Assembly (NCBI GenBank): GCA_938075435.1
Contig: CALJHL010000065.1
Location: forward strand, 1-38,333
Origin: an uncultured Thalassotalea sp.
Lineage (GTDB): Bacteria; Pseudomonadota; Gammaproteobacteria; Enterobacterales; Alteromonadaceae
Reading direction: 5' to 3'
Length of the DNA: 38,333 nucleotides
Of the stretch, positions 12,204 to 38,092 are shown one piece after another. The notes under the pieces were generated by a model that worked only from the letters and a program-made list of their open reading frames with translations, was not told the origin of the DNA and made no database searches. The translations under genes and the position numbers were made by a program. Position 1 is the first letter of the stretch; every line of letters starts with the position of its first letter.

Positions 12204-12887
12204 CTAGGTAATATCTGGCCGTTTTAGTTCTTGTTGGTATTGCCTATGCAACCGATAACTGAGCCCCGTGGCAATAACACATAGCATTGCGCTTGCCCCT
12301 ATTTGCCAATAAGACATCATTTGTATACCACTGCCCGCTAAAGCAAATATTGCCATTTGTGGAAAGAAGCCTAAATAGGATGCGAAGATAAACTTATTCG
12401 CATCAATCGCGCCAACACCCGAGCATAGGTTTAATAAAAAATTATTACCGGCAGGAATAAGGCGGATGATAAAGGTCTTTTGAAAAGTATCTTTTTGCAG
12501 AAAGTTATTAAATATAGCAACCTTGTCACTTAAGCGTGTTAACACTAATGGTCGGACAATAAACCTTGCCGTGTAAAAGGTGATACTACAGCCGATTGCG
12601 GCCGCCAACGTGGCAATAAAGGTACCTTGCCACATACCAAAGGCATAGCCCGCAGTAAAGGCAGCCACTTGCCTTGGCAAGCCACAACTCGTTGCTAACG
12701 CGATGATAGCGAAGAAATAAATAATGCCGCTAAGACCATTATGCTTAATGGTGCCATTTACCCATTGTTGATCAAAATGAGTAAACAGTCCGGAAAAGTG
12801 CAGCAGCAATGCAATTAAGGTACTGGCGACAAGAAACAATAATACCACTTGTGTTTTGGGCCAATTGTTTTTAATAAAATTTCTCAT
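12204..12887 (-). CDS. TVP38/TMEM64 (DedA-like, VTT domain) inner-membrane protein
   Basis: About 227 residues from the ATG at 12887. A GTG at 12905 in frame would add six residues and overlap the upstream nuclease gene by 7 nt; neither start has a clear ribosome site. It has about six hydrophobic segments: an N-terminal helix (VVLLFLVASTLIALLLHF), the ATSCGLPRQVAAFTAGYAFG re-entrant motif of SNARE-associated/VTT proteins, and the partner motif NNFLLNLCSGVGAIDANKF. Members are proposed lipid scramblases or flippases. It is translationally close to the nuclease gene upstream, suggesting one transcript. The substrate is unknown. Confidence 0.85.
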   Translation of the reverse strand: MRNFIKNNWPKTQVVLLFLVASTLIALLLHFSGLFTHFDQQWVNGTIKHNGLSGIIYFFAIIALATSCGLPRQVAAFTAGYAFGMWQGTFIATLAAAIGCSITFYTARFIVRPLVLTRLSDKVAIFNNFLQKDTFQKTFIIRLIPAGNNFLLNLCSGVGAIDANKFIFASYLGFFPQMAIFALAGSGIQMMSYWQIGASAMLCVIATGLSYRLHRQYQQELKRPDIT

Positions 12888-12898
12888 CAAGGCGCTGC

Positions 12899-13327
12899 TT
12901 AACACCAGCTACGGCGTTTGCCGCCAGCGTAGATATAGCCATGACCATGTTGTATTAATAACTCGGCTAGATTTTCCCCATCAATATAAACATCAGCCAG
13001 TAAGCGAAAATATTTGCCCCGTTCAATGTTTTTTAATTCAATGATTTCGGCATCGGCAAGTTTTTGTTGAGTAAAGGTTTTAGCGCTCAGAGCGAGTTTT
13101 TTTTCTATCGAACATTGACTACGCAGCTCGGGAGTATCAACCCCTTTAATACGGATTGAGGTATTAGCACCTATGATACTAGGCCAATCCTTAATGTTTA
13201 CTTTAAACGTGTCGCCATCGTAAACACTGGCAATATCATAAACACGAATATCGCCATAGTTACTGGCATTGCTGGCGTAACTGGGAATAAAAAATAACAA
13301 ACAGATTAATGCTAGGGCAAACTTCAT
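12899..13327 (-). CDS. Secreted staphylococcal-nuclease-like (thermonuclease) protein
   Basis: About 142 residues from the ATG at 13327, which gives a clean signal peptide (MKFALALICLLFFIPSYA); an ATG at 13345 would add six residues before it. The SNase OB-fold is complete: VYDGDTFKV (calcium Asp), IRIKGVDTPEL (Arg and Glu of the active site), and YFRLLADVYIDG containing the second arginine, then NLAELLIQHGHGY. Calcium-dependent cleavage of DNA/RNA in the periplasm or outside the cell is expected. The C-terminus GGKRRSWC ends on a cysteine, and an earlier Cys in RSQCSIEKK might pair with it. It is followed directly by the VTT protein gene. Confidence 0.88.
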   Translation of the reverse strand: MKFALALICLLFFIPSYASNASNYGDIRVYDIASVYDGDTFKVNIKDWPSIIGANTSIRIKGVDTPELRSQCSIEKKLALSAKTFTQQKLADAEIIELKNIERGKYFRLLADVYIDGENLAELLIQHGHGYIYAGGKRRSWC

Positions 13328-13391
13328 AGGACTACTTAACGGCATGGGAAAATACGAACAGCTAACTCACTAAAGATAAATTAAAGCGAGT

Positions 13392-14066
13392 TTATTTAGT
13401 TGGGCAAATAATAACTTTTTTGGCTTCAATAAACTGTTGTTTTTTGTTATTACCCACATAGCTAACGCTGCCTTCAATCAGGACCTGTTGATGTAATTGG
13501 GCTTTCTTGGCAAAGTACTCGGCGGTTTTCCCCCACAGGTGCACTAAACGTTGAATTTTTTGGCCTTTAAAATGATGATTAGCCTCACTAAAACCGGGTT
13601 CATTTATGGTGACGGTAAATTCTGCCAAGCTGACGTTATTTTCGGTTTTCACCAATTTTATCTCTGAGTCGACGGTGGCGTTGCAAATGAGTTGGTTAAC
13701 GCCATTATGAACGCCTTTACCTAACACCGATAAACTTTCAACTTGAATAACATCTTTGCTTTGGCTTTTACTGGTTGCCAGAGCACCATGTAACATAATT
13801 AATTGGCCTTTGTCGGCAAAGAGAAAATGTTGCTCTACATTTTGCCCTTCAAAATGACATTGATGGTAGCTGGTCCAGTCTTTAAAAGAGTTGGATTTTT
13901 TATCAAACCAAGAGTGATTGGTGGCGATAACAAATTCTGCAATTGGCACAACAGGGTTTGCCCGGTAGCGGATTTCAGGTTTAGCAACTAAGTTACCGGC
14001 CAGAATAACATGGCATTGTTGTTTGCTTTCTTGAGGTTCTGGCACGCTGCGAGTTTTATCGGTCAT
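13392..14066 (-). CDS. Protein with two tandem SSB-like OB-folds
   Basis: 224 residues. Residues about 17-118 read as an SSB OB-fold (HVILAGNLVAKPEIRYR, FVIATNHSWFDKKSN, WTSYHQCHFEG, then LIMLHGALAT). Residues about 122-222 repeat the pattern (QLICNATVDSEIKLVK, EFTVTINEPGF, QRLVHLWGKTAEYFAKKA, QQVLIEGSVSYVG). Canonical SSB is about 170-200 residues with one OB-fold and an acidic DDDIPF-type tail; here there are two folds and the end is KKVIICPTK with no acidic tip. It probably binds single-stranded DNA but may not recruit the usual SSB partners. It is upstream of the secreted nuclease gene, on the same strand and 64 nt away. Confidence 0.75.
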   Translation of the reverse strand: MTDKTRSVPEPQESKQQCHVILAGNLVAKPEIRYRANPVVPIAEFVIATNHSWFDKKSNSFKDWTSYHQCHFEGQNVEQHFLFADKGQLIMLHGALATSKSQSKDVIQVESLSVLGKGVHNGVNQLICNATVDSEIKLVKTENNVSLAEFTVTINEPGFSEANHHFKGQKIQRLVHLWGKTAEYFAKKAQLHQQVLIEGSVSYVGNNKKQQFIEAKKVIICPTK

Positions 14067-21046: not shown

Positions 21047-24028
21047 TTACAAGCTTTCTAAAAAGCTCAATATTTTTGCCCGTTCATCGCTTGTTAACGC
21101 ATTGTAGGCATCGGTAATCGCTTGTGCTTCACCGCCATGCCAACGTATCGCTTCGTCAATAGTTCGCGCCCGTCCATCATGCAAATATGCATGGTGCGGT
21201 GTACATACTTCACCGCCTTCTGCCCCCGTTGGGTTGATTACACCACCCGTTACACACGCAGCTAAGCCAAGACCCCATAAGGGCGTGGTGCGCCATTCGC
21301 TGCCGCTGGCCAATCCTTCACCTAAGGTATCTGCAAGCCCTTCTCCCATATCGTGCAAGAGCATATCTGAATACGGGTGAATGGTTTGGTTACGAACTTC
21401 CGCCAGAGGATGGAACTCACTGGTTTGGAACGTTTCGGTGTGGCAGTCAACACAGCCAATGTTTCTGAATAGTGAAGCACCGGCAAGCACTTCTTGATCT
21501 TCTAAACCAGTTTTCCAAACCCGCTGAGGTCGTACACCAAGGGTGGAGATATAAGTGATCAGATTATTTAAATTTTCCTCAGACATCAATGGGTTGCTAC
21601 CACCACAATTTTCTTGGGCCGAACCACAATCAAGATTTGGCAGCACCGAGGTACGGACCCCAATATCGGTATTTAGCGCTGCGGCCACCTGATGGCGCAC
21701 GCTAATTGTGCTGGCTTTCCAACCAAAACGACCGAGATTAGTTACGGCACCGTTTTCTGGATTTACGGTTTTATTTGCCACACCCGAAATTCCGTTGCCA
21801 TCGGCATCCGTAGGATCTTCTAACGCAAGTATAGCGGTTTCTGGAATTGCATCGAGCAATCCCAAACCGACTAGGCGTGGCGCAATACGAGCCGAAAATG
21901 TGGCTGGCGTTGCTTCGCTAAATCGATAATTAGGTATACGTAAACCGTCAGCTAGTTCGGTCCAGGATGCTATAGAAATATGACCCTCACCGCCACTGCC
22001 ATTCGGCTGTAATACTCGACCAATTGCTGGGTCGGGATTACCGTTTGCATCGCCTACTTTGAATACCCAGCGATCCAGTAAATCACCATTCTCGGCAACT
22101 GGTGCGCCACCATTACGCTCGTGACAATCGGTACAACGTTCGTTTACATAACGCACTGCAGACAGACCAACGTTATCTGCAAATATACCGTTATCCGGAT
22201 CTTCGTCGTGAGTACCGTCAACAAATGACGAGTGGTGAACGCGACGACCTAATAAAAACGTCTGGCCATTGTCGTAGCCTAGGTTAGTGGCCATTTGCAT
22301 GAAGTGGTCATTCGGTTCATTGGTATATTGGTAGTGCAAGCTAGTCGCGCCACCTGACCAATATTCTTGGGGTATTTTAGCGCTGTCTTCGCGGTACGTG
22401 CTGCCGGCTGCTTCTGCATACCAAGGCACAATGCCTTCACCAACAATATAAAGGTAAGTCGTACCATAGTAGTTGGCTTGGCCGCGCGGTATACCTGATG
22501 CGCTGAACTGGCTGATTTCAAATTCCATTTTGTCACCAATTCGAATTTCTCGACCGAGACGGGTGTTTTCATTACTGATTTTTTGGTACTTGTAGTAAGT
22601 GCCATCAAAACCAATATAGTTCATGGTGCCATTACTCGCGTATTGTGCGACGGTGGTAATACCTTGATACCACCAACGGTTTTCAGCTTCTATATCGCTT
22701 AGCGGGAAAATGGTGCGTACATTCATTTCAATGGTGTCACCGCCTTTGGCAACGTAATCGATAATTTCAATGTTACTTGAGCGATTCTCGAAATAAAATT
22801 TAACGTAATGGTCATAAGATTGAAACTCATCTTCACGAGCGTGACGGGTACGCGGTCGATCAGAAAAACGGGTGACTAAGGCATCATCTGTTTCAAATTG
22901 ACTGTCCGGTTCAAGTAAGGTTGTTTCATCGTATAGCGTGCTTATATTCCCCAGCACACCATAAGGCACGAGCCACCAGGTACCACCGGCGCCATCGCCA
23001 TTGGTGTCACCGGCATTGATATCACCAACATAAAAATACAATGGACGGCCATTATGAGCCGCTTGGATAAGACCATCCGCGCGTACGATAGTAGTTAAGC
23101 CATTGACGCCAGATGCGACTGAGTCTGCTACTAAAACTGGCGGCCAAGTTATTGCACAGCCGTCATTACAGACACTGCTTTCGGGGGCAGCTAAATCGTT
23201 ATCAAATACATAAAGAGAAAAGCCAGGAAAGGCGGAGTTAGGGCCGCCAGTTAGGCGTTCATTGGCGAATGATACTTCGGTATCTACAGAAATAATTTCG
23301 CAACCATTAGTATCGACAATCGCACCCTCAGCAGTGTTTGGGCATTGATCGACAGAATCGGCAACACCATCTGCATCGTCATCGGAATCTGGGGTAAATT
23401 CAATCCAGTTAATGTTAAAATCGTTGCCGGTTACATCCAAACGCAAGGTCTGGACGGTTGGATCTTGAGCAACGACGATGGTGCCGATAGTGTGCGTTTC
23501 GAATGCTTGCCAGCCGCCGGTGCCGACGCTATCGGTGCCTATTAATATGCCATCAAGTTTTAGGGTATAACGACCGCTAGATACTTGTGAGGCAACACGT
23601 GTGGTCACTGAATACAAACCAGCGCTTAAATTCACTTGATACTCAAGCCACTCACCTGCCACAGTCCAACCAACATTGCGGCCGCCGCCAACATCTGTGG
23701 TGTTTTCGATATCAACATTGTCACCATTGCCGCTACCACCGTTATCACCGGCATCGGAGTCACTGAACCTTAGATAGTCTTCAGCTTCAACTTTTACACT
23801 TTCAGCTGGAGTAGGCGTCGGAGTCGGAATTGGAGCCGGAGTCGGAGTAGGCGTCGGAGCTGGAGTAGGCGTCGGAGCCGGAGTTGGAGCCGGAGTTGGG
23901 GCCGGAGTTGGGGCCGGAGTTGGGGCCGGAGTAGCAGGTGGCGTGCTTTCACCAGACCCGCCACCGCAGGCACTTAAGCTTGTGGCGGCAACCAAACACA
24001 GCGCCAAAATATATTTATTGGAATTCAT
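21047..24028 (-). CDS. Multidomain lipoprotein: CBM6, TSP3-like, lipoprotein-repeat and di-haem oxidoreductase domains
   Basis: 993 residues. Lipoprotein signal with lipobox LSAC (Cys21). A proline/threonine/alanine linker (about 29-76) is made of PTPA repeats. A CBM6-like carbohydrate-binding domain follows (about 80-215, VEAEDY start, [22 protein letters not shown] end). Next is a calcium-binding TSP3-type segment ([21 protein letters not shown]), then a COG4315-type lipoprotein repeat ([30 protein letters not shown]). The C-terminal half is a DUF1111-type di-haem oxidoreductase/peroxidase-like domain with CTDCH (631-635) and CVDCH (859-863), and the ending [16 protein letters not shown]. 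It should be surface or periplasmic and redox active. Ribosome site GAGG lies 10 nt before the ATG. The catalysed reaction is unknown. Confidence 0.88.
23811..23935 (-). repeat. 12-bp-phase tandem repeats encoding the PTPA linker
   Basis: Near-identical units of the type GGAGTTGGGGCC (plus strand) recur every 6 or 12 bp, encoding alternating Pro-Thr-Pro-Ala/Ile. The most identical units are at 23880-23930, which suggests recent slippage and possible length variation between strains. Confidence 0.85.
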
Positions 24029-26247: not shown

Positions 26248-28323
26248 ATGGAAATATTGGGTTTAATTGGCTATAGCACGGCAGCGATAGCATATTTAAT
26301 TTTTTTATTGCTGATTTTTGTCGGCAAACAGCAGGGCTTCACCAACCGATTAATGATGCTTGCATGCTTAGGCTCTTTTGCTGCGGCGTTAATCAGTACC
26401 CTGCAAATGTATTACTCATTTTCTTTACCTTTCACGTTGCTAATCGAAGCGATAAAAATTTGCTGTTGGTCGGTATTGTTGCTTAGCCTTAATAATGGCG
26501 TAGGCAGCTTAAGTGAATTTTTGTCACAACCACAACTAAAAAAATATCTAATAATTTGTGGGCTAGGGATCGCAATTGCCGCCATAGAAATTATCCAATT
26601 CCAGCAATACTCTTGGGTGTTTATTATTCTACTGGCGTTTAATCTTACGGCTTTAGTGCTGTTGGAGCAACTATATCGAAATCATAAAAATAAATTTAAA
26701 TGGGCAATTTGGCCATTAATTGCTGGTTTAGGTGGTGTGTTTGTTTTTGATTTTATTATTTATGCGCAAGCGTCACTATTGACCCGCATTGATTTTGACT
26801 TTTGGTATGGCCGTGGTTATATAGCGATTTTTGCCTTGCCATTTATCGTGCTAAGTTCGAAACGAATAAAAGGCTTATCACCAGACTTATTTATTTCAAG
26901 AGATGTGGTCTTTTATAGCAGCATCTTAGTGCTAAGTGGTCTGTATTTAATATTATTAGCTTTTTCAGGCTATGTTATTCGCTATATTGGCGGTCAATGG
27001 AGTGACTTATTAAGCATTATTTTTATGGCGCTAGGCAGCTTAGTGCTATTTTCGTTACTGATAACCAGCAGTTTACGAAATAAAGTTAAGGTATTTATTA
27101 GTAAACACTTTTTTGCCAATAAATACGATTATCGGCTAGAGTGGTTAAACGTTATTTCAGCAATAGAAGGGCAAGGCTCGGTCGATTTCTATAAAACAGC
27201 AACTCGGGCAATGGCTGCTTGCTTACAAGTAAACTATTGTGGCTTTGTGAAGAGTACCCATCGCCAATTAGAAGTGGCTTATCGAGATGGGTTGAATTTT
27301 CCTGATCCTGTTATTGAACAATTGCAGTTAATTGATAATTTTTGTCAGCAGCAACATTGGATTATTGATGTCAGAGAATATCAAGCCAAAAATAGTATTT
27401 ACCAAGGCTTAGTCATAGACGCGCCGTTATTAATAAGCCATTTTATTGAAATAATCGTCCCTACCTATAATCAACAGCAATTACTCGGTTATTTTGTTTC
27501 CCCTGGACCAGTAGAAAAACCCATTCTTAACTGGGAAGACAGAGATTATTTATTTGCTGTGTCAAAGCAACTAGGTAGTTACCTGTCATTGCAGCAAGCG
27601 CAATTAAAGTTGGCACAAAATCAGCAGTTATCGGCATTTCATCGGATGTCTGCTTTTGTCTTACACGATCTGAAAAATATCCAAGCTCAGCTTGCTCTGA
27701 TTAATACAAATGCCGAAAAGCACCAACAAAATCCTGAATTTATTGATGATGTTTTTACCACAGTCGCATCGGCAGGCGAGCGTTTGGATAAAGTGGTAAA
27801 ACAGTTACAAGTTAAAAGCGGTAAAAGCTTAGATAAAACAACGCAAGCGCATGGTTTAGTTGAATTGCCCATTGATCCAATAAATTTAGGAGATGTATTT
27901 AAAGACGTTCTACAAAACTGCAGGCACCGCCAACCGGTAGTGAGCGTAAACGGCGCAGATGATCTATTCTTAGAGGTAGATAAAGAACGTTTACTCGATG
28001 TATTAATTCACTTAGTGCAAAATGCACAAGAAGCTTGTCAAGCCGATGGGTGGGTAAAAATCAATGCCAAGCAGTCGCAGCAGCGTCTCATCATTACTAT
28101 TAGCGATAATGGTTGTGGTATGTGTGAGGAGTTTATTGCTACTAAGTTGTTTAAACCTTTCAATACCACTAAAGGTAATGCTGGTATGGGTATTGGCGTT
28201 TTTGAAGCAAAACAATTTATTGAAGACAATAATGGCGTGTTGTCAGTGGTAAGTGAAATAGACAAAGGCTGTGAAGTTACGTTGAACCTGCCGGTGTCAT
28301 TAACCAAATTAAGGACGGCTTAA
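26248..28323 (+). CDS. prsK: XrtA/PEP-CTERM system histidine kinase PrsK
   Basis: 691 residues, matching the PrsK family length and layout: about eight N-terminal membrane helices (residues 5-275), a GAF-like sensor (about 305-455), and a kinase core with LHDLKN (phosphoacceptor His473) and the ATP-binding boxes LVQNAQEAC, ISDNGCGM and GMGIGVF. It is expected to phosphorylate PrsR to control expression of PEP-CTERM proteins and exopolysaccharide. The prsR start is 3 nt after its stop, so they are co-translated. It begins the exosortase A region, with tRNA-Arg upstream on the other strand. The signal sensed is unknown. Confidence 0.93.
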   Translation: MEILGLIGYSTAAIAYLIFLLLIFVGKQQGFTNRLMMLACLGSFAAALISTLQMYYSFSLPFTLLIEAIKICCWSVLLLSLNNGVGSLSEFLSQPQLKKYLIICGLGIAIAAIEIIQFQQYSWVFIILLAFNLTALVLLEQLYRNHKNKFKWAIWPLIAGLGGVFVFDFIIYAQASLLTRIDFDFWYGRGYIAIFALPFIVLSSKRIKGLSPDLFISRDVVFYSSILVLSGLYLILLAFSGYVIRYIGGQWSDLLSIIFMALGSLVLFSLLITSSLRNKVKVFISKHFFANKYDYRLEWLNVISAIEGQGSVDFYKTATRAMAACLQVNYCGFVKSTHRQLEVAYRDGLNFPDPVIEQLQLIDNFCQQQHWIIDVREYQAKNSIYQGLVIDAPLLISHFIEIIVPTYNQQQLLGYFVSPGPVEKPILNWEDRDYLFAVSKQLGSYLSLQQAQLKLAQNQQLSAFHRMSAFVLHDLKNIQAQLALINTNAEKHQQNPEFIDDVFTTVASAGERLDKVVKQLQVKSGKSLDKTTQAHGLVELPIDPINLGDVFKDVLQNCRHRQPVVSVNGADDLFLEVDKERLLDVLIHLVQNAQEACQADGWVKINAKQSQQRLIITISDNGCGMCEEFIATKLFKPFNTTKGNAGMGIGVFEAKQFIEDNNGVLSVVSEIDKGCEVTLNLPVSLTKLRTA

Positions 28324-28326
28324 ATT

Positions 28327-29685
28327 ATGGACAAACTGTTAATTGTTGATGACGATATTGGCATTCAGAAGCAACTAAAATGGAGTTTAGCAGACTACAG
28401 CGTGGTATTTGCTAGTGACCGTGAGCAAGCCATTTCGGCGTTGCGCTTACATGAGCCTAAGGTAATATTACTTGACCTTGGCTTGCCACCAGATGCTGCC
28501 AATGCCAGCGAAGGCTTGCAAGCGTTAGAGCAAATGTTAGCACTCTCGCCGTTTGTTAAAGTGATTGTGATCACCGGCAACGATGATCATCAAGTTTCCT
28601 TAGATGCTATTGCTAAAGGCGCCTATGATTTTTATCAAAAACCAATAGATGCCGAAGTCATCAATATTATTGTCGCCAGAGCGTTTGGTTTAGCAACTAT
28701 TGAACAAGAAAATCGTGATATTCGTGAACTTGGTGGTGTTGATTCAGGCATTATTGGTAACAGTGAGATCATGGATAAATTGCGTAATATGGTTAAAAGA
28801 ATTGCGCCTACTGAAATTACCGCATTATTATTAGGCGAAAGCGGCACCGGTAAAGAGGTTATTGCCAATGCTATTCATCAACAAAGCAATCGCCACAATA
28901 AACCCTTTATAGCGATTAATTGTGCTTCAATTCCAGAAACCTTGTTAGAAAGTGAATTGTTTGGTTTTGAAAAAGGCGCTTTTACCGGCGCTCATAAAAC
29001 CACCAAAGGTAAAATAGAAATGGCCCAAAATGGCACGCTTTTTTTGGATGAAATAGGAGACATGCCATTTAATTTGCAAGCTAAATTACTTCGATTTTTA
29101 CAAGAGCGAATTATTGAACGCATCGGCGGGCGACAAGAAATTGCCGTAGATGTGCGGGTGATCTGCGCCACCAATCAAAATTTACTGCAAATGGTGACTG
29201 AAAAAAGCTTTCGGGAAGACTTATATTATCGAATTAGCGAGATTGTTATTCCTATCGCACCACTAAAAGACAGAGAGTATGATGTGCTGATTTTGGCACA
29301 ATATTTTTTATTGCAATACGCCCAAGACTACAACTTAAAACTTAAAGGCTTTAGTGATGAGGCGGTTAGTGCCTTAAAAAGTTACAGTTGGCCAGGAAAT
29401 ATTCGTGAATTGCAAAATAAAATTAAATCGGCAGTAATAATGGCAACAAGCGCACAAATTAATGCCGATGATTTGGGCTTTTATGAGGAGCTAGATGGGG
29501 AACTTTGCCTAGACTTTAATTTAAGAACGATAAGAGAAAAAGCAGAATCAAAAGCAATACAACAAGCGTTTGCTTTAGCCGAAGGAAATATGAGTAAAAC
29601 TGCGCAGATGTTAGGTATTACACGGCCAACATTGTATGGTTTAGTCGATAAGTATGGATTGCAATTTAAACCGATAGAAAATTAA
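28327..29685 (+). CDS. prsR: XrtA/PEP-CTERM system sigma-54 response regulator PrsR
   Basis: 452 residues: a receiver domain (1 to about 125, phospho-acceptor Asp50 in LLDLGLP), an AAA+ sigma-54 activation domain (about 145-370, with Walker A GESGTGKE, GAFTGA loop ELFGFEKGAFTGA, and Walker B TLFLDEIGD), and a Fis-type helix-turn-helix at the end (NMSKTAQMLGITRPTLYGLV). It activates RNA polymerase with RpoN at promoters of PEP-CTERM and exopolysaccharide genes. It follows prsK by 3 nt and its stop lies 8 nt from the convergent stop of the ATPase gene, with no terminator visible between them. Confidence 0.95.
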   Translation: MDKLLIVDDDIGIQKQLKWSLADYSVVFASDREQAISALRLHEPKVILLDLGLPPDAANASEGLQALEQMLALSPFVKVIVITGNDDHQVSLDAIAKGAYDFYQKPIDAEVINIIVARAFGLATIEQENRDIRELGGVDSGIIGNSEIMDKLRNMVKRIAPTEITALLLGESGTGKEVIANAIHQQSNRHNKPFIAINCASIPETLLESELFGFEKGAFTGAHKTTKGKIEMAQNGTLFLDEIGDMPFNLQAKLLRFLQERIIERIGGRQEIAVDVRVICATNQNLLQMVTEKSFREDLYYRISEIVIPIAPLKDREYDVLILAQYFLLQYAQDYNLKLKGFSDEAVSALKSYSWPGNIRELQNKIKSAVIMATSAQINADDLGFYEELDGELCLDFNLRTIREKAESKAIQQAFALAEGNMSKTAQMLGITRPTLYGLVDKYGLQFKPIEN

Positions 29686-29693
29686 TTTCTGTC

Positions 29694-30854
29694 TTATTTT
29701 TTGTCTTTAATTTGCCGTAAATATTCTTCTGCTTCGGCCATTGCTTCATTTTTAGTCGCTAATATATGGGCTTCAGATTCAGCGATTATAATATTTTGAG
29801 TCTTAATAAACTCTTCCTCCGCTTGTGCTAAAGCTAACTTTTTTTGTTTGCTTACTTTATCTAAATAGCGGTTCATTTTTATTTTTTGTGCGACATTTTC
29901 TTGTAAAAATTCATCAATGATCTTTATTTTTTCTAAAATGCTGGCGTTTATTATTGCTGAATGCTGCAATCTGTCCTGATCATCTACAGGGGTTGCATTG
30001 GTTACTGTAGTGGCTTGCTCATTTTCCAGATGAATAGTTGAGCTGAGTTCTTCGGCAAGCTCTAAGATAACCGACTTTACATCTTCTAGGCCGAATTTTT
30101 TAATGTCATTTAAAAATCCATAAAGCAAAATTCTATCCATTAATAAATTAATCTTTCGTGGCACTCCCAGAGTCTGACTTTCAATTAATGGGTAACAATC
30201 AGTGCTAAATATATTTACGTCGGGAATATTAACTAAACTGAGTCGGTGGCTTATATATTGAACAATTTCAGTAAGTGCCAGCGGTTTAAGGTGGCAAGAG
30301 GCAATGATACGTTGCCGAAACTGTTCCATCGCCGGGCTTTGAATTATCGCTTTTAACTCTTCTTGTCCTAATAGGAAACTTTGCAATAACGGCTTGTTAT
30401 TTATTTGAAAATTAGACAACATGCGCAGCTCTTCTACCGTATCAGCGGGTAAGTTTTGTGCTTCATCGACAATTAATAGAGCTCGTTTTTGCTGCTTGGA
30501 CAAGCTAATTAGATGTTGTTCAATAGTTTTCAATAACTGCGCTTTATTGGATACTGGTGTGGCTATTCCAAACTCATTAGCGATAACGGCAAGTAGATCT
30601 TCGGGAGAAAGCTTACTGGTGACAATTTGTATGGCTTCGACATTGGTATTTTCAATATGAGTTAGCAAATTTTGCGCTAAAGTGGTTTTTCCGGTGCCGA
30701 TTGGACCCGTGATCACAATAAATCCTTCACCTTGCTCTAAGCCATATTTTAAATAAGACAGCGCTTGCTGATGTTTGTCTGAGGCAAAGAAAAACTTTGC
30801 ATCTGGGGTTAATTGAAACGGTTTAGCGGTGATCCCATAATGCTGTTCATACAT
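29694..30854 (-). CDS. XrtA/PEP-CTERM system-associated ATPase (ExeA-like, AAA)
   Basis: 386 residues. The N-terminus MYEQHYGITAKPFQLTPD and the phrase YLKYGLEQGEGFIVITG fit the PEP-CTERM-associated ATPase family, which resembles ExeA/GspA. Walker A GPIGTGKTT (about 50-58), Walker B LLIVDEAQ (about 125-132). The family is normally around 270-350 residues; here an extra C-terminal tail from about residue 290 is a charged coiled coil (QKIKMNRYLDKVSKQKKL, then QAEEEFIKTQ and AEAEEYLRQIK). Last gene of the minus-strand export operon; the upstream gene stops 1 nt before this start. Likely role is energising or organising the envelope export complex. Confidence 0.9.
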   Translation of the reverse strand: MYEQHYGITAKPFQLTPDAKFFFASDKHQQALSYLKYGLEQGEGFIVITGPIGTGKTTLAQNLLTHIENTNVEAIQIVTSKLSPEDLLAVIANEFGIATPVSNKAQLLKTIEQHLISLSKQQKRALLIVDEAQNLPADTVEELRMLSNFQINNKPLLQSFLLGQEELKAIIQSPAMEQFRQRIIASCHLKPLALTEIVQYISHRLSLVNIPDVNIFSTDCYPLIESQTLGVPRKINLLMDRILLYGFLNDIKKFGLEDVKSVILELAEELSSTIHLENEQATTVTNATPVDDQDRLQHSAIINASILEKIKIIDEFLQENVAQKIKMNRYLDKVSKQKKLALAQAEEEFIKTQNIIIAESEAHILATKNEAMAEAEEYLRQIKDKK

Positions 30855-30855
30855 A

Positions 30856-32472
30856 TTAAAATTCTTTTGCTAGTTTTACTGCAAGCCGATTTTCGGTGTA
30901 GTCGTAATAAAATCGATTCGAGCTTCTATTTAAATGTTGACCCGAAAATGTCGCAGTTAGGCTCCTGCTGAGTCGTTGCTCCCAACTAAGTTTGTAGATA
31001 CGGTAATGGTCTATTTGATCTAAGCTATCGGGATTATTTTTATTAATATGGTTTTTATTAAAGCTATAACTAAATTTTAAGTCGGTGGTTCTGGAAGTCT
31101 GACGATTTATTGAAAATTTGGCGTTCTCATAAATATCATAATCACCGATCTCAAGATTTTTGCGTTCCGATTTTCTCAGGGTTAATTTATAACTAGTTCG
31201 CTGTAAATTTAGGCTAGAAGTAACGTTTAGAGTTTTGTTGAGACTAAAATGGTCGGCTTGTTGCGGTGCATAATCAGAGCTGCTACCAATCAGGGTATAA
31301 TCACTTAAATCGACACCTTCACCGGGTGAAAATAAACAACTGCTAATATCCGTCGGCGCTGCGGTTAAACACCACAAACTTTGCGAATTTACCGGCACAA
31401 ATTCTAGACGATCGAACGCTTGTATTGATTCATTATAGTTAATGGCGGTAGTTAAGCGTTTGCTGCGATGGCGGTAAGAAAACTGATAGGCATCACCAAA
31501 AAAGCGTTGATAGTATTTAGCCAATAAGCTTGTTCTCGAGGAGGGTTGCCATTCTATCAAGGCGCTTACATAATCATCTTGCTCCTCAGCATCATCGCCC
31601 ACCGAGGATGTATCATCGTCGGCGCTGTTATAAGCCATATCAATAATTAAATGCGGGCTTGCTAACCACCTAATTCCAGCGCCAATTGACGAGGAACCTT
31701 GGATGCTACCGTCATTAATATTGCCACTGAACCCTTCGTCATAATAACGAATAAACGGATTTAGTTTAAAGTCGCTAATATAGCCAGTTTTGAGCTCTGC
31801 GGTATAAAATCGACCATCTCGATTACTATTGTCGTAATCACTGTATTGACTGTTGATATTCCAAAAAACTACTCGGGAATTACTGCCGCTGGCACTCGCA
31901 AAAGAAGCGATGTATCCATCTCTTTCGCCGACTTTATCTTCGGCTTCATCGAGTAGCAAAGTAATTGCTGAGCCAATTGTAAAACTTGATGATTGAACAT
32001 TATAAGCTAAGCCAAGTCGGTAATTGTTGTATTCGACGGTGTCGCCAGAAACAATATCGGCCAAGGCATTACGAGTATCGTTTTCACTGACATTACGTAT
32101 CGTTGCTGAAGCATTTAATGACAAACCATTTGGTAATAAATCGATACGGCCAGTTGCTGATAAGTTATGAAAGTTATCATCTAAGTCATGGTCATGGGTA
32201 TACCAAGCCTGAGTTAATTCATAGTCTAATTCTAAACTGGCACCTGCCTCTAAGTATTCTAAATTGAGACCTGGGGAAAGCATAGAAACAAAACTGTCTA
32301 TTTCATTAATGCTATTGAGTTCAACATTATCTGTAAAGGTTTCTTCAAAACTTACTCGTGGAGTAACCCGCCAATCATTAGCAAAGCTTGGTAACGAATA
32401 AAGAGCAAGTACGACGAAAACAATGGAATAATTTCGTTTAGTTTTTTCCGTACCCATATCCGTAATATCCAT
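30856..32472 (-). CDS. XrtA/PEP-CTERM system-associated outer-membrane beta-barrel protein
   Basis: 538 residues with a signal peptide (YSIVFVVLALYSLPSFA, cleaved near residue 31), then WRVTPRVSFEETFTDNVELN, the hallmark opening of the PEP-CTERM outer-membrane family (TIGR03016), and many amphipathic strands ending in LAVKLAKEF. It probably forms the barrel through which the polysaccharide passes. The ATG at 32472 lies inside the kinase gene and is preceded by AAGGA 5 nt upstream, so I prefer it to the ATG at 32457; the overlap is 35 nt. The stop lies 1 nt before the ATPase start. Confidence 0.88.
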   Translation of the reverse strand: MDITDMGTEKTKRNYSIVFVVLALYSLPSFANDWRVTPRVSFEETFTDNVELNSINEIDSFVSMLSPGLNLEYLEAGASLELDYELTQAWYTHDHDLDDNFHNLSATGRIDLLPNGLSLNASATIRNVSENDTRNALADIVSGDTVEYNNYRLGLAYNVQSSSFTIGSAITLLLDEAEDKVGERDGYIASFASASGSNSRVVFWNINSQYSDYDNSNRDGRFYTAELKTGYISDFKLNPFIRYYDEGFSGNINDGSIQGSSSIGAGIRWLASPHLIIDMAYNSADDDTSSVGDDAEEQDDYVSALIEWQPSSRTSLLAKYYQRFFGDAYQFSYRHRSKRLTTAINYNESIQAFDRLEFVPVNSQSLWCLTAAPTDISSCLFSPGEGVDLSDYTLIGSSSDYAPQQADHFSLNKTLNVTSSLNLQRTSYKLTLRKSERKNLEIGDYDIYENAKFSINRQTSRTTDLKFSYSFNKNHINKNNPDSLDQIDHYRIYKLSWEQRLSRSLTATFSGQHLNRSSNRFYYDYTENRLAVKLAKEF

Positions 32473-33379
32473 AAAGTTCCTTTTGAGAATGAATGGCTTT
32501 ATTTAAAATTAGCCCTTTAGCTAATTCATCATGCAATAATGCATTAGCCTGATATACATCGTTTAGAGAGGTTTTGTTTTCTTCGACGGCAATTAATGCC
32601 TGGCCCATAAGCCTAGCTAAAACTGGGGTTTCTGTTACGCCTAATAACGGCGGAGAATCGAAAATAACTATCCGGTCTGGGTATCTGGTTGATAACTCGC
32701 TTGCTAATATCGCCATTCGTTCGCTGGCTAATAATTCATTCGATAAATGATGCGGGCTACCGGCAGGTATGATTTTTAAATTATCAATATTGGTATGGTA
32801 AATAATGTCGCTGACACTTTTATTTTTACTCAACAAATATTCAATTAATCCTGAGCGTTGCTTTGCCCCAAATTCGCGCAATATACTTGGTTTTAATACG
32901 TCGCTATCAACCAACAGCACGGTTTTATCTTGTTCTAAAGCAATACTTAGGGCCAAATTAATAGCAATGTAAGTTTTACCCTCATCAGGCCTAGCGCTGG
33001 TGATCATAATTAAATTTGGATGAGTTAGGGTAGATGCTACCGCGCCAAAAGCATTATTAAGCAGTTTTCTTTTAACTTGTCGAAACTCTTCTTTTAATAT
33101 TCGGTTATCTTCGATATTTTCGGGGACGATATAATCGTTTTGAGCCAGTTTTTTTAAATCTAAATTGATAACGTTAGCTTCGCCTTTGGGGTGCTCAACT
33201 TTTGAAATAACGGCGGCTTTTTCAGGAGCACTAGCTAATATATCACCCGGATCAGTCATAGGTTCACTTGGTTCTGGCTTAACGGCTATTTCAATAGCTG
33301 ATTTTGGTTTTTCAGTGGCCTGCTGCTCAGATTGTTTACTCGCTTGATTTTTGGCTAGCGCTTGTTCAATGGTAGACAT
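32438..33379 (-). CDS. XrtA-associated tyrosine autokinase (BY-kinase)
   Basis: 313 residues. The first ~80 residues are disordered and charged (STIEQALAKNQASKQSEQQ). The kinase core then has LKEEFRQVKRKLLN, Walker A ITSARPDEGKTYIA, Walker A' LLVDSDVLKPSI and Walker B VIFDSPPLLGVTE. The extreme C-terminus is a tyrosine cluster, YGYYGYGYGKN, the autophosphorylation tail that tunes polymerisation. In BY-kinases of this type the activator is the chain-length protein encoded just upstream (33382), with the stop 2 nt before this start. The tail codons are also the beginning of the next gene. Confidence 0.93.
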   Translation of the reverse strand: MSTIEQALAKNQASKQSEQQATEKPKSAIEIAVKPEPSEPMTDPGDILASAPEKAAVISKVEHPKGEANVINLDLKKLAQNDYIVPENIEDNRILKEEFRQVKRKLLNNAFGAVASTLTHPNLIMITSARPDEGKTYIAINLALSIALEQDKTVLLVDSDVLKPSILREFGAKQRSGLIEYLLSKNKSVSDIIYHTNIDNLKIIPAGSPHHLSNELLASERMAILASELSTRYPDRIVIFDSPPLLGVTETPVLARLMGQALIAVEENKTSLNDVYQANALLHDELAKGLILNKAIHSQKELYGYYGYGYGKN

Positions 33380-33381
33380 AA

Positions 33382-34968
33382 TTAAAAGATCCTTCTTAAC
33401 TGCGGCTGAAGAACGTCAGGGGCTAAAAAATAGCCGATAAAAGCTATGAAGATAAGTAAAATAACCATATTCGAGAGATAAAATAGTCGAGTTTTATTCT
33501 TGTAGCTGGCTCTAAGGTGCAAATTATCTGATGCCGCAATAACACCAAATATTGGTAAACCAATTGCTCTATGTAGTTGTGTTGCAGAAATTACTACTGG
33601 GTTGATTTTGATCATTAAAATGGCTGAACTTACCCCAACCGCAATGCCAATAATGAGCACTGCCAATGATAACAATAGCCGGTAAGGACCCGATGGCTCA
33701 GCTGGCGAACGTGGCGGGTCAATTACCCGAAATTGAATTTTATCTGATGTTGCATCTGCTTGTTTGGCTAGCAATGCCGTTTCACTTCTTCCTAGCAACT
33801 GTTCATATTTGGCTTTGGTAATTTCATAACCACGATTTAATGCCACCATCTCAGCTTCAATTTCAGGCAGTACATGTATTTTGGCATTAAGTTCATTTAC
33901 TTGATTTTGATAATCGATACTTCTTACTTTTAATGAAGCAACTTCACTCTCCAGCTGATTCATTTGTATTTTCATTGCTTGGTAGACCGGGTTTTTAATC
34001 GCCGAATCACTTTCTGCACCAGCAACACCATTATTACTGTAATAATTCTCTATTTCGGTTCTTCTTAAATCTTTTAATTCACTAATCCTGCGGGTCAACT
34101 CCCTGACGTCGGGGTGGTTTTCGGTATAGCTGATTTTTAAATTATCGAGATTGGTTTGCAGGTTAACTATGCTTTCATCATAGGTTGTCGCAATGCTGTT
34201 TTGCTCAATAACATTGTCTGAAATTCTATTATTCGGACTATTTTCTTTGGCCAGTTGGGCTTTTGCCGATATTAACCGGGTTTGGGTTTCCAGTAATTGT
34301 AATTTAGTGGCTTTTAATAAGCGTTTAACGTTATCCAGAGCAGCATAGAAGCCGTTTGAGTCGCTGGGCATAATACCACTATATTTTTGTTTAAATTCGG
34401 TGAGTCGTCTTTCTGCTTCAATCAGGCGTAATTCATAATCACTAATTTGTTGCTTTAAAAATTGCTGGGCGGTGTCGGTGTCACTTCGCGTTTCACCTAA
34501 GGTGTTTTCAATAAAAACAGTCAAGGCTGCTTGCACTATATTTTTTGCTAATTGTGGGCTTTCTTCTTCAATCGACAAGGTATAAATATTTTCTCGGCCA
34601 GCACTATCTATCTTAATGTTTTTTTTAAGTGCTTCAATAATAGCATCAAATTCTTCATTATCTTGGGCTTTTAAATCTAGGTCGGTCATCCGCGCAATAC
34701 GCTCAAGGTTAGGCCGACTTAATAAAGTTTTGACCATTAACCTAATTTGCATATTGGCATCGGTTTCTACCATTATGCCTTTCATTAAAGGCCTAAGGAG
34801 TGATTGAGTATCAACATATACCCGAGCAGATGCTTGGTATTGATCAGGTAGGCTAGATACGCCTAGCCAACCTAACGGGCAAATTAACCAGGTGGAAATA
34901 ATTATGTAGTGTTTCTTACTCCAAACACCTAGTAACGTTTCCTTAATTTTCTCTATTTGTTCATGCAT
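33382..34968 (-). CDS. XrtA system polysaccharide chain-length determinant (Wzz-like)
   Basis: 528 residues. N-terminal membrane helix near residues 20-40 (YIIISTWLICPLGWLG), then a long periplasmic coiled coil (about 170-405, VKRLLKATKLQLLETQT, LRRTEIENY), then two membrane helices (LLSLAVLIIGIAVGVSSAI and LSNMVILLIFIAFIGYFL). The proline-rich VIDPPRSPAEPSGP before the second helix is typical of Wzz proteins. It matches the PEP-CTERM chain-length family (TIGR03007). It regulates length of the exopolysaccharide and activates the BY-kinase. Together with the export lipoprotein and kinase it forms the standard Wzx/Wzy export core. Confidence 0.93.
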   Translation of the reverse strand: MHEQIEKIKETLLGVWSKKHYIIISTWLICPLGWLGVSSLPDQYQASARVYVDTQSLLRPLMKGIMVETDANMQIRLMVKTLLSRPNLERIARMTDLDLKAQDNEEFDAIIEALKKNIKIDSAGRENIYTLSIEEESPQLAKNIVQAALTVFIENTLGETRSDTDTAQQFLKQQISDYELRLIEAERRLTEFKQKYSGIMPSDSNGFYAALDNVKRLLKATKLQLLETQTRLISAKAQLAKENSPNNRISDNVIEQNSIATTYDESIVNLQTNLDNLKISYTENHPDVRELTRRISELKDLRRTEIENYYSNNGVAGAESDSAIKNPVYQAMKIQMNQLESEVASLKVRSIDYQNQVNELNAKIHVLPEIEAEMVALNRGYEITKAKYEQLLGRSETALLAKQADATSDKIQFRVIDPPRSPAEPSGPYRLLLSLAVLIIGIAVGVSSAILMIKINPVVISATQLHRAIGLPIFGVIAASDNLHLRASYKNKTRLFYLSNMVILLIFIAFIGYFLAPDVLQPQLRRIF

Positions 34969-34997
34969 GATAGGGATTCTTTATAAGTATTTTTAGT

Positions 34998-35636
34998 TTA
35001 AAACCATGCTTCAGGGATGACAATAATATCGCCAGGCAAGACATCAACATTACCTTTGATATCACCATATTTAACTAAATCTTCAATCAATAGTTGATAT
35101 TGTTTCTGTTGACCGTTTTCAATTCTAACCAGAATGGCATCGTTACCATCGGCATACTCAGTTAAGCCGCCAACCGCAATCATCACATCCAGTAAAGTCA
35201 TATTTTGTCGATAGCTAACCGCTTTCGGTTGGGCAGCCTCTCCAATTATTCTGATTTGTTCATGATAAGGGCCAACAAAACCATTTACCGTAACGGTGAC
35301 AATAGGCTCTCTTAAATAGGTAGCCAACCGCTCTTCAATGCTTCGAGCTAACTGGGTGGGCGTTATTCCTGAGGCGGGAATATCTTCCACTAAAGAGGTG
35401 GTTATTTTTCCGTCTGGACGAACAATAAAACTGCCAGATACCTCTGGATTACGCCAAACAAATATATTTAAGGTATCACCAGGGCCGATTAAATAATTGT
35501 AGTTGGCAGCACTGTCGGTTTTCGCTGGGTGTAGGGTTGCAGTTGGTAAGGTTGGGCTAGAGCTACAGCTTGCTAAAAAAGTAAGAGCAGTCACTAGGAC
35601 CAATGCTGATTTAAGAGACAAAAATCCTTTCGTCAT
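34998..35636 (-). CDS. XrtA system polysaccharide export lipoprotein (Wza-like)
   Basis: 212 residues. Lipoprotein signal with lipobox LASC (Cys24). Then the polysaccharide export domain YLIGPGDTLNIFVWRNPEVSG (about 48-68), the PDGKITTSLVED strand pair, and an SLBB-like domain (IRIIGEAAQPKAVSYRQNM, LLDVMIAVGGLTEYADGN). Ends VLPGDIIVIPEAWF. It should form the outer-membrane or periplasmic export channel of the exopolysaccharide. First gene of a five-gene minus-strand operon. Divergent from the glycosyltransferase gene across 177 bp of very AT-rich DNA that must hold both promoters. Confidence 0.93.
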   Translation of the reverse strand: MTKGFLSLKSALVLVTALTFLASCSSSPTLPTATLHPAKTDSAANYNYLIGPGDTLNIFVWRNPEVSGSFIVRPDGKITTSLVEDIPASGITPTQLARSIEERLATYLREPIVTVTVNGFVGPYHEQIRIIGEAAQPKAVSYRQNMTLLDVMIAVGGLTEYADGNDAILVRIENGQQKQYQLLIEDLVKYGDIKGNVDVLPGDIIVIPEAWF

Positions 35637-35813
35637 AACTAACGCCTTTTGTTTATTAAATTATTATTACTAAATTAGAGATTAGTCGATAAGCAAAAAA
35701 ATGCATAAATTTTACACAAAAATCTTTTTATCTAGTTGATTGGTCTATTATTAAATTCAAACCCTCAATGACTGTTAATTTTTCTTAGTCTGTTTTTGAT
35801 AAGGTAATGAAGT
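35637..35813. promoter_or_regulatory. Divergent promoter region of the two exopolysaccharide operons
   Basis: 177 bp, AT-rich, between the export lipoprotein (minus) and the glycosyltransferase (plus). A long A tract (AAGCAAAAAAATGCAT, 35691-35706) is visible. I see no clear -24/-12 (TGGCAC-N5-TTGC) element for PrsR/sigma-54 and no confident sigma-70 pair. The ribosome site AAGGT at 35801-35805 serves the plus-strand gene. Confidence 0.45.
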
Positions 35814-37196
35814 TTGAATAATAATAATCAAAATTACTCATCGTTAATGTTAAAGCTTTTATTATTATGCGATGCCGTGCTATTTTTTAGCGCATTTTAT
35901 GTCGCTAGCACCGAGACTTTGCAACAAACAACTGGCTTTAATTTTATTATTAATGGTTTGTTTTTTGCTTTTGTAATGCAGCTGAGCTGTTTAGGCTTAG
36001 GCCTGTATAAATCGAAATTGCGAGAAAAAATAAGTGGTGTTTTTAGACGATTAATGTTGGTTTGTGGTATCAGCTATATTTTTCTAGCCATGCTTGAACA
36101 ATTTACAAGTAATCCGAGTTTAAACAATGACTTTCTGATCAAAGCTTGTATTTTGGCGTTTGTGTTTAGCGCGGGATTTCGTTTCTTACTTTATAAATTT
36201 AATATTCTAGGTTTTGCTAAGCGCAATGTGTTGGTACTTGGGGCGGGCCAGCGAGCATTAATTATTGATACCCGGATGCGGCGCGAAGTTGATCGACAAG
36301 GTTTTAATTTGCTCGGTTTTATTCTCATGGATGGTGATTTGCCTGCCGATATAGAACCAAGTCACATTATCGATTTGAAAACCCAGTTAATAGATTATGT
36401 AGTTAAAAATCAAGTGCATGAAATTGTGGTTGCCACTGATGAAAGGCGCACCAACTTACCCGTTGATGAGCTGTTTGCGTGTAAATTAAGAGGGGTTGTC
36501 GTTTCTGAAATATTAGATTTTATTGAAAATGAAACCGGTCAAATTGCGGTAAATTTAATTTATCCGAGTTGGATTATTTATTCAAAAGGATTTCATTCGA
36601 GCAATGATTTAAGGAATACTTTTGATTGGGGACTTAATGCGAGTTTAGCCGTATTTCTGTTTATACTTAGTTGGCCATTTATGCTTTTAGCGATTTTGGC
36701 GATTAAAATGGAAGATGGTTTTAATGCCCCGGTGCTTTATTGGCAAGAGCGAGTTGGCTTAAATGGTAAAATTTTTCGTATCGTTAAATTTCGCTCTATG
36801 ACCGTGGATGCCGAACAAAATGGAGCCCAGTGGGCAAAACCGCAAGATAGCAGAGTAACTTGGGTAGGTCGTTTTATTCGTAAATACCGTATTGATGAGC
36901 TCCCGCAAATTTATAACGTATTTACTGGTGATATGGGCTTTGTTGGGCCAAGACCTGAGCGCCCAGAGTTTGTTGAAAAATTGAAGGGAATTATCCCTTA
37001 TTACAGTGAAAGACATAACGTTAAATCGGGCTTAACGGGCTGGGCGCAACTTAAATACCCTTATGGCGCAACCCAAGAAGATTCTCTTGAAAAACTAAAG
37101 TTTGATCTCTATTACATTAAACATCGCAGTATCTTATTGGATTTATTGATATTAATACAAACCGCAGAGGTGGTGTTATTTGGTAAAGGCAGGTAA
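35814..37196 (+). CDS. XrtA system priming glycosyltransferase (polyprenyl phosphate sugar transferase)
   Basis: 460 residues starting at TTG, supported by AAGGT eight nt upstream; an ATG at 35807 is in another frame and closed at once. It has five membrane helices in the first ~150 residues plus one at about 275-300, a nucleotide-binding-like domain between them (NVLVLGAGQRALI), and the bacterial sugar transferase domain at the end (IFRIVKFRSM, RIDELPQIYNVF, GPRPERPEF, SGLTGWAQ). It matches the PEP-CTERM glycosyltransferase family (TIGR03013, EpsB-like) and would load the first sugar phosphate on undecaprenyl phosphate. The deacetylase follows in the same operon. Confidence 0.93.
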   Translation: MNNNNQNYSSLMLKLLLLCDAVLFFSAFYVASTETLQQTTGFNFIINGLFFAFVMQLSCLGLGLYKSKLREKISGVFRRLMLVCGISYIFLAMLEQFTSNPSLNNDFLIKACILAFVFSAGFRFLLYKFNILGFAKRNVLVLGAGQRALIIDTRMRREVDRQGFNLLGFILMDGDLPADIEPSHIIDLKTQLIDYVVKNQVHEIVVATDERRTNLPVDELFACKLRGVVVSEILDFIENETGQIAVNLIYPSWIIYSKGFHSSNDLRNTFDWGLNASLAVFLFILSWPFMLLAILAIKMEDGFNAPVLYWQERVGLNGKIFRIVKFRSMTVDAEQNGAQWAKPQDSRVTWVGRFIRKYRIDELPQIYNVFTGDMGFVGPRPERPEFVEKLKGIIPYYSERHNVKSGLTGWAQLKYPYGATQEDSLEKLKFDLYYIKHRSILLDLLILIQTAEVVLFGKGR

Positions 37197-37204
37197 ATAT
37201 TATT

Positions 37205-38092
37205 TTGTCTAACCAGCCTGTCAGAAAATCTATTCTTACTGTCGATGTTGAAGATTATTTTCAAGTATCAGCCTTTGAAAATATTATCGAACATCGGCAA
37301 TGGGATAATCTTGAGCATCGAGTAGAGGCCAATACCCAGCGAATATTAGATTTGTTTGCTAACCATAACGCTACTGCTACTTTCTTTGTTTTAGGTTGGG
37401 TCGCAGAGCGTTATCCGGCGCTTATTAAGCGCATTGTTGATGACGGCCATGAATTGGCAAGCCATGGCTATGGTCATCAACGACTGACTAATTTAACACC
37501 GGCCCAAGTGTTGGAAGATATCAAAAAAAGCAAAGATATCTTGGAGGACCTTGCGGGTAAGGAAGTCGTTGGCTACCGAGCTCCCAGTTTTTCAATTAAT
37601 AAATCTAATCTTTGGGTATATCAAATATTAAAGGATTTGGGCTTTAAATATAGCTCAAGTACCTACCCCATCCATCATGATTTATATGGTGAGCCAGATT
37701 GGCCACGGCATGCCTACACAACCGATGCCGGCATCTTAGAAATTCCCTTATCGACTTTAAAGTTAGCCAATAAAAATTTCCCTATCGCTGGTGGTGGTTA
37801 TTATCGCTTACTGCCTTATTGGCTAAATAAGCGAGCGATTAAACGCTTTATGGACACAGAAAGTGCCCCTTATATGTTTTATTTTCATCCCTGGGAAATC
37901 GACGTAGAACAGCCAAGAATAAAGGGCGCTGCAATTAAGTCTATTGTTCGTCATTACACCAATTTAAACCACATGGAAGCGAAAATTGTTAAGTTATTAA
38001 CAACTAATCAGTGGCAAAGTATCCGACAAAGTTATCAACAGCAGTGGCTAAATACCGATGATTGCAGCCCTAAAGGTCACAACAGTGTCTGA
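37205..38092 (+). CDS. XrtA system polysaccharide deacetylase
   Basis: 295 residues, beginning with TTG (MSNQPVRKS) and followed by ILTVDVEDYFQVSAFEN, the hallmark of the PEP-CTERM deacetylase family (TIGR03006, with DUF3473 at the C-terminus). The NodB motifs are DVEDY, HELASHGYGHQ (H-x3-H), GYRAPSFSI and, near the end, FYFHPWEID. It removes acetyl groups from the exopolysaccharide, probably in the periplasm, though no signal peptide is visible. It is 8 nt after the glycosyltransferase stop, and its last 8 nt overlap the exosortase start, so all three genes are co-transcribed. Confidence 0.93.
   Translation: MSNQPVRKSILTVDVEDYFQVSAFENIIEHRQWDNLEHRVEANTQRILDLFANHNATATFFVLGWVAERYPALIKRIVDDGHELASHGYGHQRLTNLTPAQVLEDIKKSKDILEDLAGKEVVGYRAPSFSINKSNLWVYQILKDLGFKYSSSTYPIHHDLYGEPDWPRHAYTTDAGILEIPLSTLKLANKNFPIAGGGYYRLLPYWLNKRAIKRFMDTESAPYMFYFHPWEIDVEQPRIKGAAIKSIVRHYTNLNHMEAKIVKLLTTNQWQSIRQSYQQQWLNTDDCSPKGHNSV

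Follow-up and report, generated by a model that had tools for sequence, protein, structure and literature searches.

A tail-less paralogue of single-stranded DNA-binding protein with two OB folds in Thalassotalea and related marine bacteria

In the textbook view, the single-stranded DNA-binding protein (SSB) of Gammaproteobacteria is a homotetramer of chains that each carry one OB fold and an acidic tip. Firmicutes use dedicated SSB paralogues in transformation. Paralogous SSBs have been discussed previously (PMC3168475), and the gonococcal SsbB, encoded on a genetic island with parA, parB and topB, ends in a short acidic stretch (PMC3334931). In Deinococcus radiodurans, SSB (DrSSB) is described as a homodimer whose subunits each contain two OB folds (PMC3739723). 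The open-access articles that we searched do not describe two-OB SSB paralogues from Gammaproteobacteria, which is not proof of absence. The protein studied here is an overlooked form of the familiar SSB, present in the Colwellia/Thalassotalea group of marine bacteria and in three related families.

Gene, domains and predicted structure

We identified, in the window (the whole 38,333-nt stretch of DNA analysed here), a single open reading frame of 224 aa that fills positions 13392–14066 exactly on the minus strand; the plus strand of this segment is full of stops. The product (P0001) is a two-OB SSB paralogue, as indicated by the reading frame, Pfam matches, AlphaFold2 modelling, Foldseek comparisons and dN/dS ratios of about 0.03–0.07. 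It belongs to the SSB superfamily: PF00436 (SSB) matches the whole chain with 68 bits (cut-off 26) and TIGR00621 with 60.9 bits (cut-off 53.95). The earlier note had read two SSB-type domains in tandem, and HMM searches bear this out, as PF00436 matches each half on its own above the curated cut-off (residues 19–105 of the first half, E 4.9e-11; the C-terminal 106 aa, E 1.2e-6). Based on Pfam, AlphaFold2 and residue mapping, domain 1, an SSB OB fold, spans approximately residues 15–119 (13710–14024, minus strand), and domain 2, a divergent OB fold with a tail-less end, approximately residues 120–224 (13392–13709, minus strand). Purifying selection is strong on both (median dN/dS 0.031 for domain 1 and 0.065 for domain 2, by the Nei-Gojobori method for pairs at 80–99.5% identity). 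Family models name such proteins just ‘single-stranded DNA-binding protein’, so they are readily missed or taken for the housekeeping SSB.

Structure prediction, proposed in the earlier note as a check, also returned two complete OB barrels rather than one. The AlphaFold2 monomer, modelled with 32 homologues (mean pLDDT 87, pTM 0.81), places them at residues 18–117 and 123–220; confidence is low only for the N-terminus and loop 159–166. Foldseek ranks 1–8 are full-length matches to two-OB SSBs from Thermus aquaticus, T. thermophilus and D. radiodurans (for 2ihf, TM 0.76/0.83, 217 columns, 21% identity), and single-OB SSBs rank below these with half the coverage.

The layout of a canonical SSB, in which a single OB fold is followed by a disordered linker and an acidic DDDIPF-type tip, is not found in this protein. 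A DDDIPF-like end had been reported missing from the window protein, and indeed none of 117 homologues of the two-OB family carries such an acidic tip. The basic tail said to replace it was not substantiated: in the AlphaFold2 model the last strand reaches residue 220 of 224, and the basic residues (EAKKVI) sit within this strand. As the strand ends four residues before the C-terminus, no tail is left, basic or otherwise. Domain 2 of the window protein carries a net charge of +3.5, versus a family median of only +0.6, indicating that basicity is not a conserved trait.

Putative binding residues were mapped onto E. coli SSB through alignments of less than 30% identity. Residues 8–89 of the E. 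coli sequence used agree with the PDB alignment. In domain 1, equivalents of W40, R21, K49 and K73 are kept in all 32 sequences and that of K43 in 31, and the W54 position is Y or F in 32 of 32. The F60 and W88 equivalents are absent from this domain (two of the four stacking aromatics), which may mean weak affinity or RNA as the ligand. Domain 2 lacks equivalents of W40, W54 and W88. Its F60 position is W in 29 and F in 3 of 32 sequences (W178 in the window protein), with R at the H55 position in 32/32 and K at the K62 position in 29/32; the window protein carries R173 and K180 in addition to W178. Thus, neither domain has the full canonical aromatic set of W40, W54, F60 and W88, and the division of residues between the domains in this low-identity mapping is suggestive of one ssDNA path across both.

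Canonical SSB, distribution and origin of the second domain

The source assembly (2.83 Mb, 306 contigs, 78% complete) also encodes a canonical single-OB SSB of 222 aa that ends in MDFDDDIPF, which answers the question, raised earlier, of whether a canonical ssb lies elsewhere in the genome. Canonical SSBs were recovered from 14 relatives as well, with the usual tip except in one frame (L198), which was read only as far as ...DFDDD. The two-OB protein is therefore not the sole replication SSB of the cell, and its description as an accessory SSB-like protein holds in the sense that it exists in addition to the canonical one. Some relatives encode a further SSB with a single OB fold in addition to the canonical and two-OB proteins (G017, C15:2852-3238; G004, C1:2024753-2025016), possibly located on prophages or plasmids.

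We searched 99 genomes of relatives for the two-domain protein. Every one of the 16 remaining genus members has it at full length (51–81% identity), giving 17/17 with the source genome; of 43 further genera in the family, 16 have it too (37–43% identity). Named records come from Thalassotalea, Thalassomonas, Colwellia, Cognaticolwellia, Litorilituus and Pseudocolwellia, with a few under other names. A profile built from three divergent hits revealed a second branch, type B, in 22 genomes that belong to three further families of this order (f9, f12 and f16), where the gene has a stable neighbourhood particular to each family. Foldseek returns the same list for the type B model (pLDDT 94, pTM 0.87) as for the window protein, and the W40 equivalent is retained in only 11 of 20 sequences of this branch. 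Most type B genes (L052, L053, L054, L165-L184) end in a GHTC-like motif. Applied at E <= 1e-14 to 369 genomes across the class, the type B profile found nothing outside the window's family; this sample has few members of the order and so informs on the class beyond the order.

No full-length match was found among 50,697 phage records, 72,556 plasmid records and viral contigs. The gene is chromosomal, occurs in every genus member searched and keeps the same dsbA-srkA neighbourhood across genera, which argues against the plasmid or phage function suggested earlier and against a mobile-element origin. We conclude that the two-OB gene is vertically inherited and strongly conserved.

Profile comparison of the hhalign type scored the second domains of types A and B at 71.7 against each other, but at only 38.8 and 23.3 against the first domains of their own proteins and at 40.8 and 31.2 against canonical SSB; domain 1 scored 97 against canonical SSB. 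The second domains of the two branches are thus mutual closest relatives, pointing to one origin. A maximum-likelihood tree likewise placed them in one group (97/80), with the first domains near canonical SSB; we give this group moderate weight because of its long branches and the few columns in the tree. A smaller quick tree did not resolve how the two groups of second domains join. The simplest history suggested by these sequence comparisons would be a single fusion that predates the divergence of the families, after which domain 2 changed faster.

Both domains of the T. aquaticus (Taq) protein are closer in sequence to ordinary SSB than to domain 2 of the window family: its second domain scores 69 against SSB versus 31 and 28 against the second domains described here. 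In the same quick tree, which includes partial Taq segments, both Taq domains group with SSB, and descent from a Thermus/Deinococcus two-domain chain is not supported on this basis. As the Taq domains resemble ordinary SSB and not domain 2 here, the fusion probably arose independently of Thermus/Deinococcus, and the common layout looks convergent.

Gene neighbourhood and possible functions

Two genes follow on the minus strand. The first, 46 nt downstream, encodes a protein with an SNase fold and an apparent signal peptide (12899–13345; PF00565, E 1.4e-9) and overlaps by 7 nt a gene for a VTT-domain membrane protein (12204–12905; PF09335, E 4.8e-17). This confirms the secreted-type nuclease and VTT protein reported as neighbours. 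The VTT protein is the commoner of the two; SNase lies downstream in 10 of 80 named loci. More often, the first recognised downstream gene on the same strand is C6 (67/80 named loci, median gap 55 nt), which encodes a membrane protein of approximately 700 aa with a propeller-like periplasmic part (a weak GSDH match), one membrane span and a SHOCT C-terminus; its Pfam matches are weak. One example lies at L041:4544-6715, and the L051 copy is reduced to the TM and SHOCT part. C6 occurs in 14 of the 99 genomes, but no member of the window's genus has it (0/17). Given these counts, the two-OB gene has no constant partner in the nuclease and can do without C6; a nuclease operon as the functional unit was discarded, as SNase is not conserved beside the two-OB gene. 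Farther along lie dsbA and srkA, in opposite orientation.

Elsewhere in the window, translations at 26248–38092 read as a sensor kinase and a sigma-54-type regulator followed by an exopolysaccharide export/assembly-like cluster (chain-length protein, export lipoprotein, sugar transferase and deacetylase). At 21047–24028 on the minus strand, a 993-aa lipoprotein-like translation contains a proline/threonine-rich stretch, a carbohydrate-binding-like part and two CxxCH motifs and is di-heme oxidase-like.

Taken together, the sequence and model data favour, with some confidence, an accessory chromosomal protein that binds single-stranded nucleic acid, as a passive or competing ssDNA coat beside the canonical SSB. 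With two OB folds fused in one chain, one molecule corresponds to an SSB dimer, as the model and the fold match show, and two molecules would probably pair into a four-OB particle as in Thermus/Deinococcus SSB. Domain 1, which keeps the chief stacking and basic positions, is probably the main ssDNA contact, whereas in domain 2 most of these positions are lost and one aromatic (W178) is gained together with the basic R173 and K180. As the acidic tip is absent, recruitment of partners through a DDDIPF tip is not expected, and ssDNA would be covered without it. A more specific version, which we regard as speculative and rather doubtful, is that the chain represents an SSB paralogue of a distinct kind, an asymmetric fused pair in which stacking residues are divided between the domains (the W40 and W54 positions in domain 1, F60 in domain 2) along one ssDNA path, acting as a tip-less blocker of the SSB interaction network that keeps recombination and repair proteins off some ssDNA or RNA.

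Alternatively, the protein might join canonical SSB in mixed tetramers and tune it by diluting the acidic tips per particle. The fused pair is arranged like an SSB dimer, its first domain is most similar to canonical SSB and a canonical SSB is always alongside; an interface for such mixing lacks support and pairing of domains within the chain would compete with it, so we consider this unlikely. A role as a transformation-dedicated chaperone of the SsbB kind, shielding incoming ssDNA while the adjoining secreted nuclease supplies or limits DNA, recalls the special paralogues of Firmicutes and the SNase-fold gene directly after the two-OB gene in the window. The SNase gene, however, adjoins only the minority of named loci given above and was seen in none of nine divergent-branch neighbourhoods (clusters read by eye). 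Furthermore, ComEC is present in f1 genomes both with and without the two-OB gene, so near-universal that its co-occurrence is uninformative, and CRP-S-like sites lie upstream in 6 of 97 cases against 6.35 expected. The DNA-uptake role put forward in the earlier note thus finds no support, and we consider the chaperone quite improbable. LexA-like boxes upstream were also at chance in the Colwelliaceae set, and SOS or competence control was set aside, both kinds of box being at chance there by consensus search only.

Another possibility is that the protein is tied to the C6 membrane protein, with nucleic-acid binding used for signalling or localisation. C6 is the usual downstream gene and all 14 genomes with C6 have the tandem gene, but this co-occurrence is confounded by shared ancestry, C6 is missing from the window's genus, and genes of the divergent branch have different neighbourhoods; such a tie seems very unlikely. 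We place even less faith in a PriB-like replication-restart adaptor, a tail-less OB protein linking PriA and ssDNA. The window protein is tail-less like PriB, and PriB structures are among its weaker Foldseek matches, but the same genome has a normal priB between rpsF and rpsR. Moreover, both domains profile with SSB and not with PriB (E 0.034 for domain 1 and 0.21 for domain 2 of type A, against a single PriB sequence), and the latter comparison leaves a PriB origin of domain 2 unsupported.

Comparison with described systems

In the accessory coat protein that we favour, the covering of ssDNA would be naturally uncoupled from the recruitment of partners. That four marine families conserve a tail-less companion with two OB folds also suggests at least two origins of the two-domain layout.

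The window protein shares its domain family with canonical bacterial SSB of the E. coli type (TIGR00621/PF00436), to which domain 1 aligns closely, but it has two domains and neither a disordered linker nor a DDDIPF tip. Like the SsbB proteins of Firmicutes and of the gonococcal genetic island, it is an extra SSB beside the housekeeping one; those are single-OB proteins, whereas the window protein has two OB folds and is chromosomal and off mobile elements. PriB is likewise an OB protein related to SSB that has no tail, but it has a single OB fold, a rpsF-priB-rpsR locus and a profile of its own, none of which apply here. The two OB folds per chain and their arrangement are those of Thermus/Deinococcus SSB (TaqSSB, 2ihf and 2fxq; DrSSB, 1se8 and 3udg). 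There, however, the two-OB protein is the canonical SSB of the organism, whereas the window protein has no tail and accompanies a canonical SSB.
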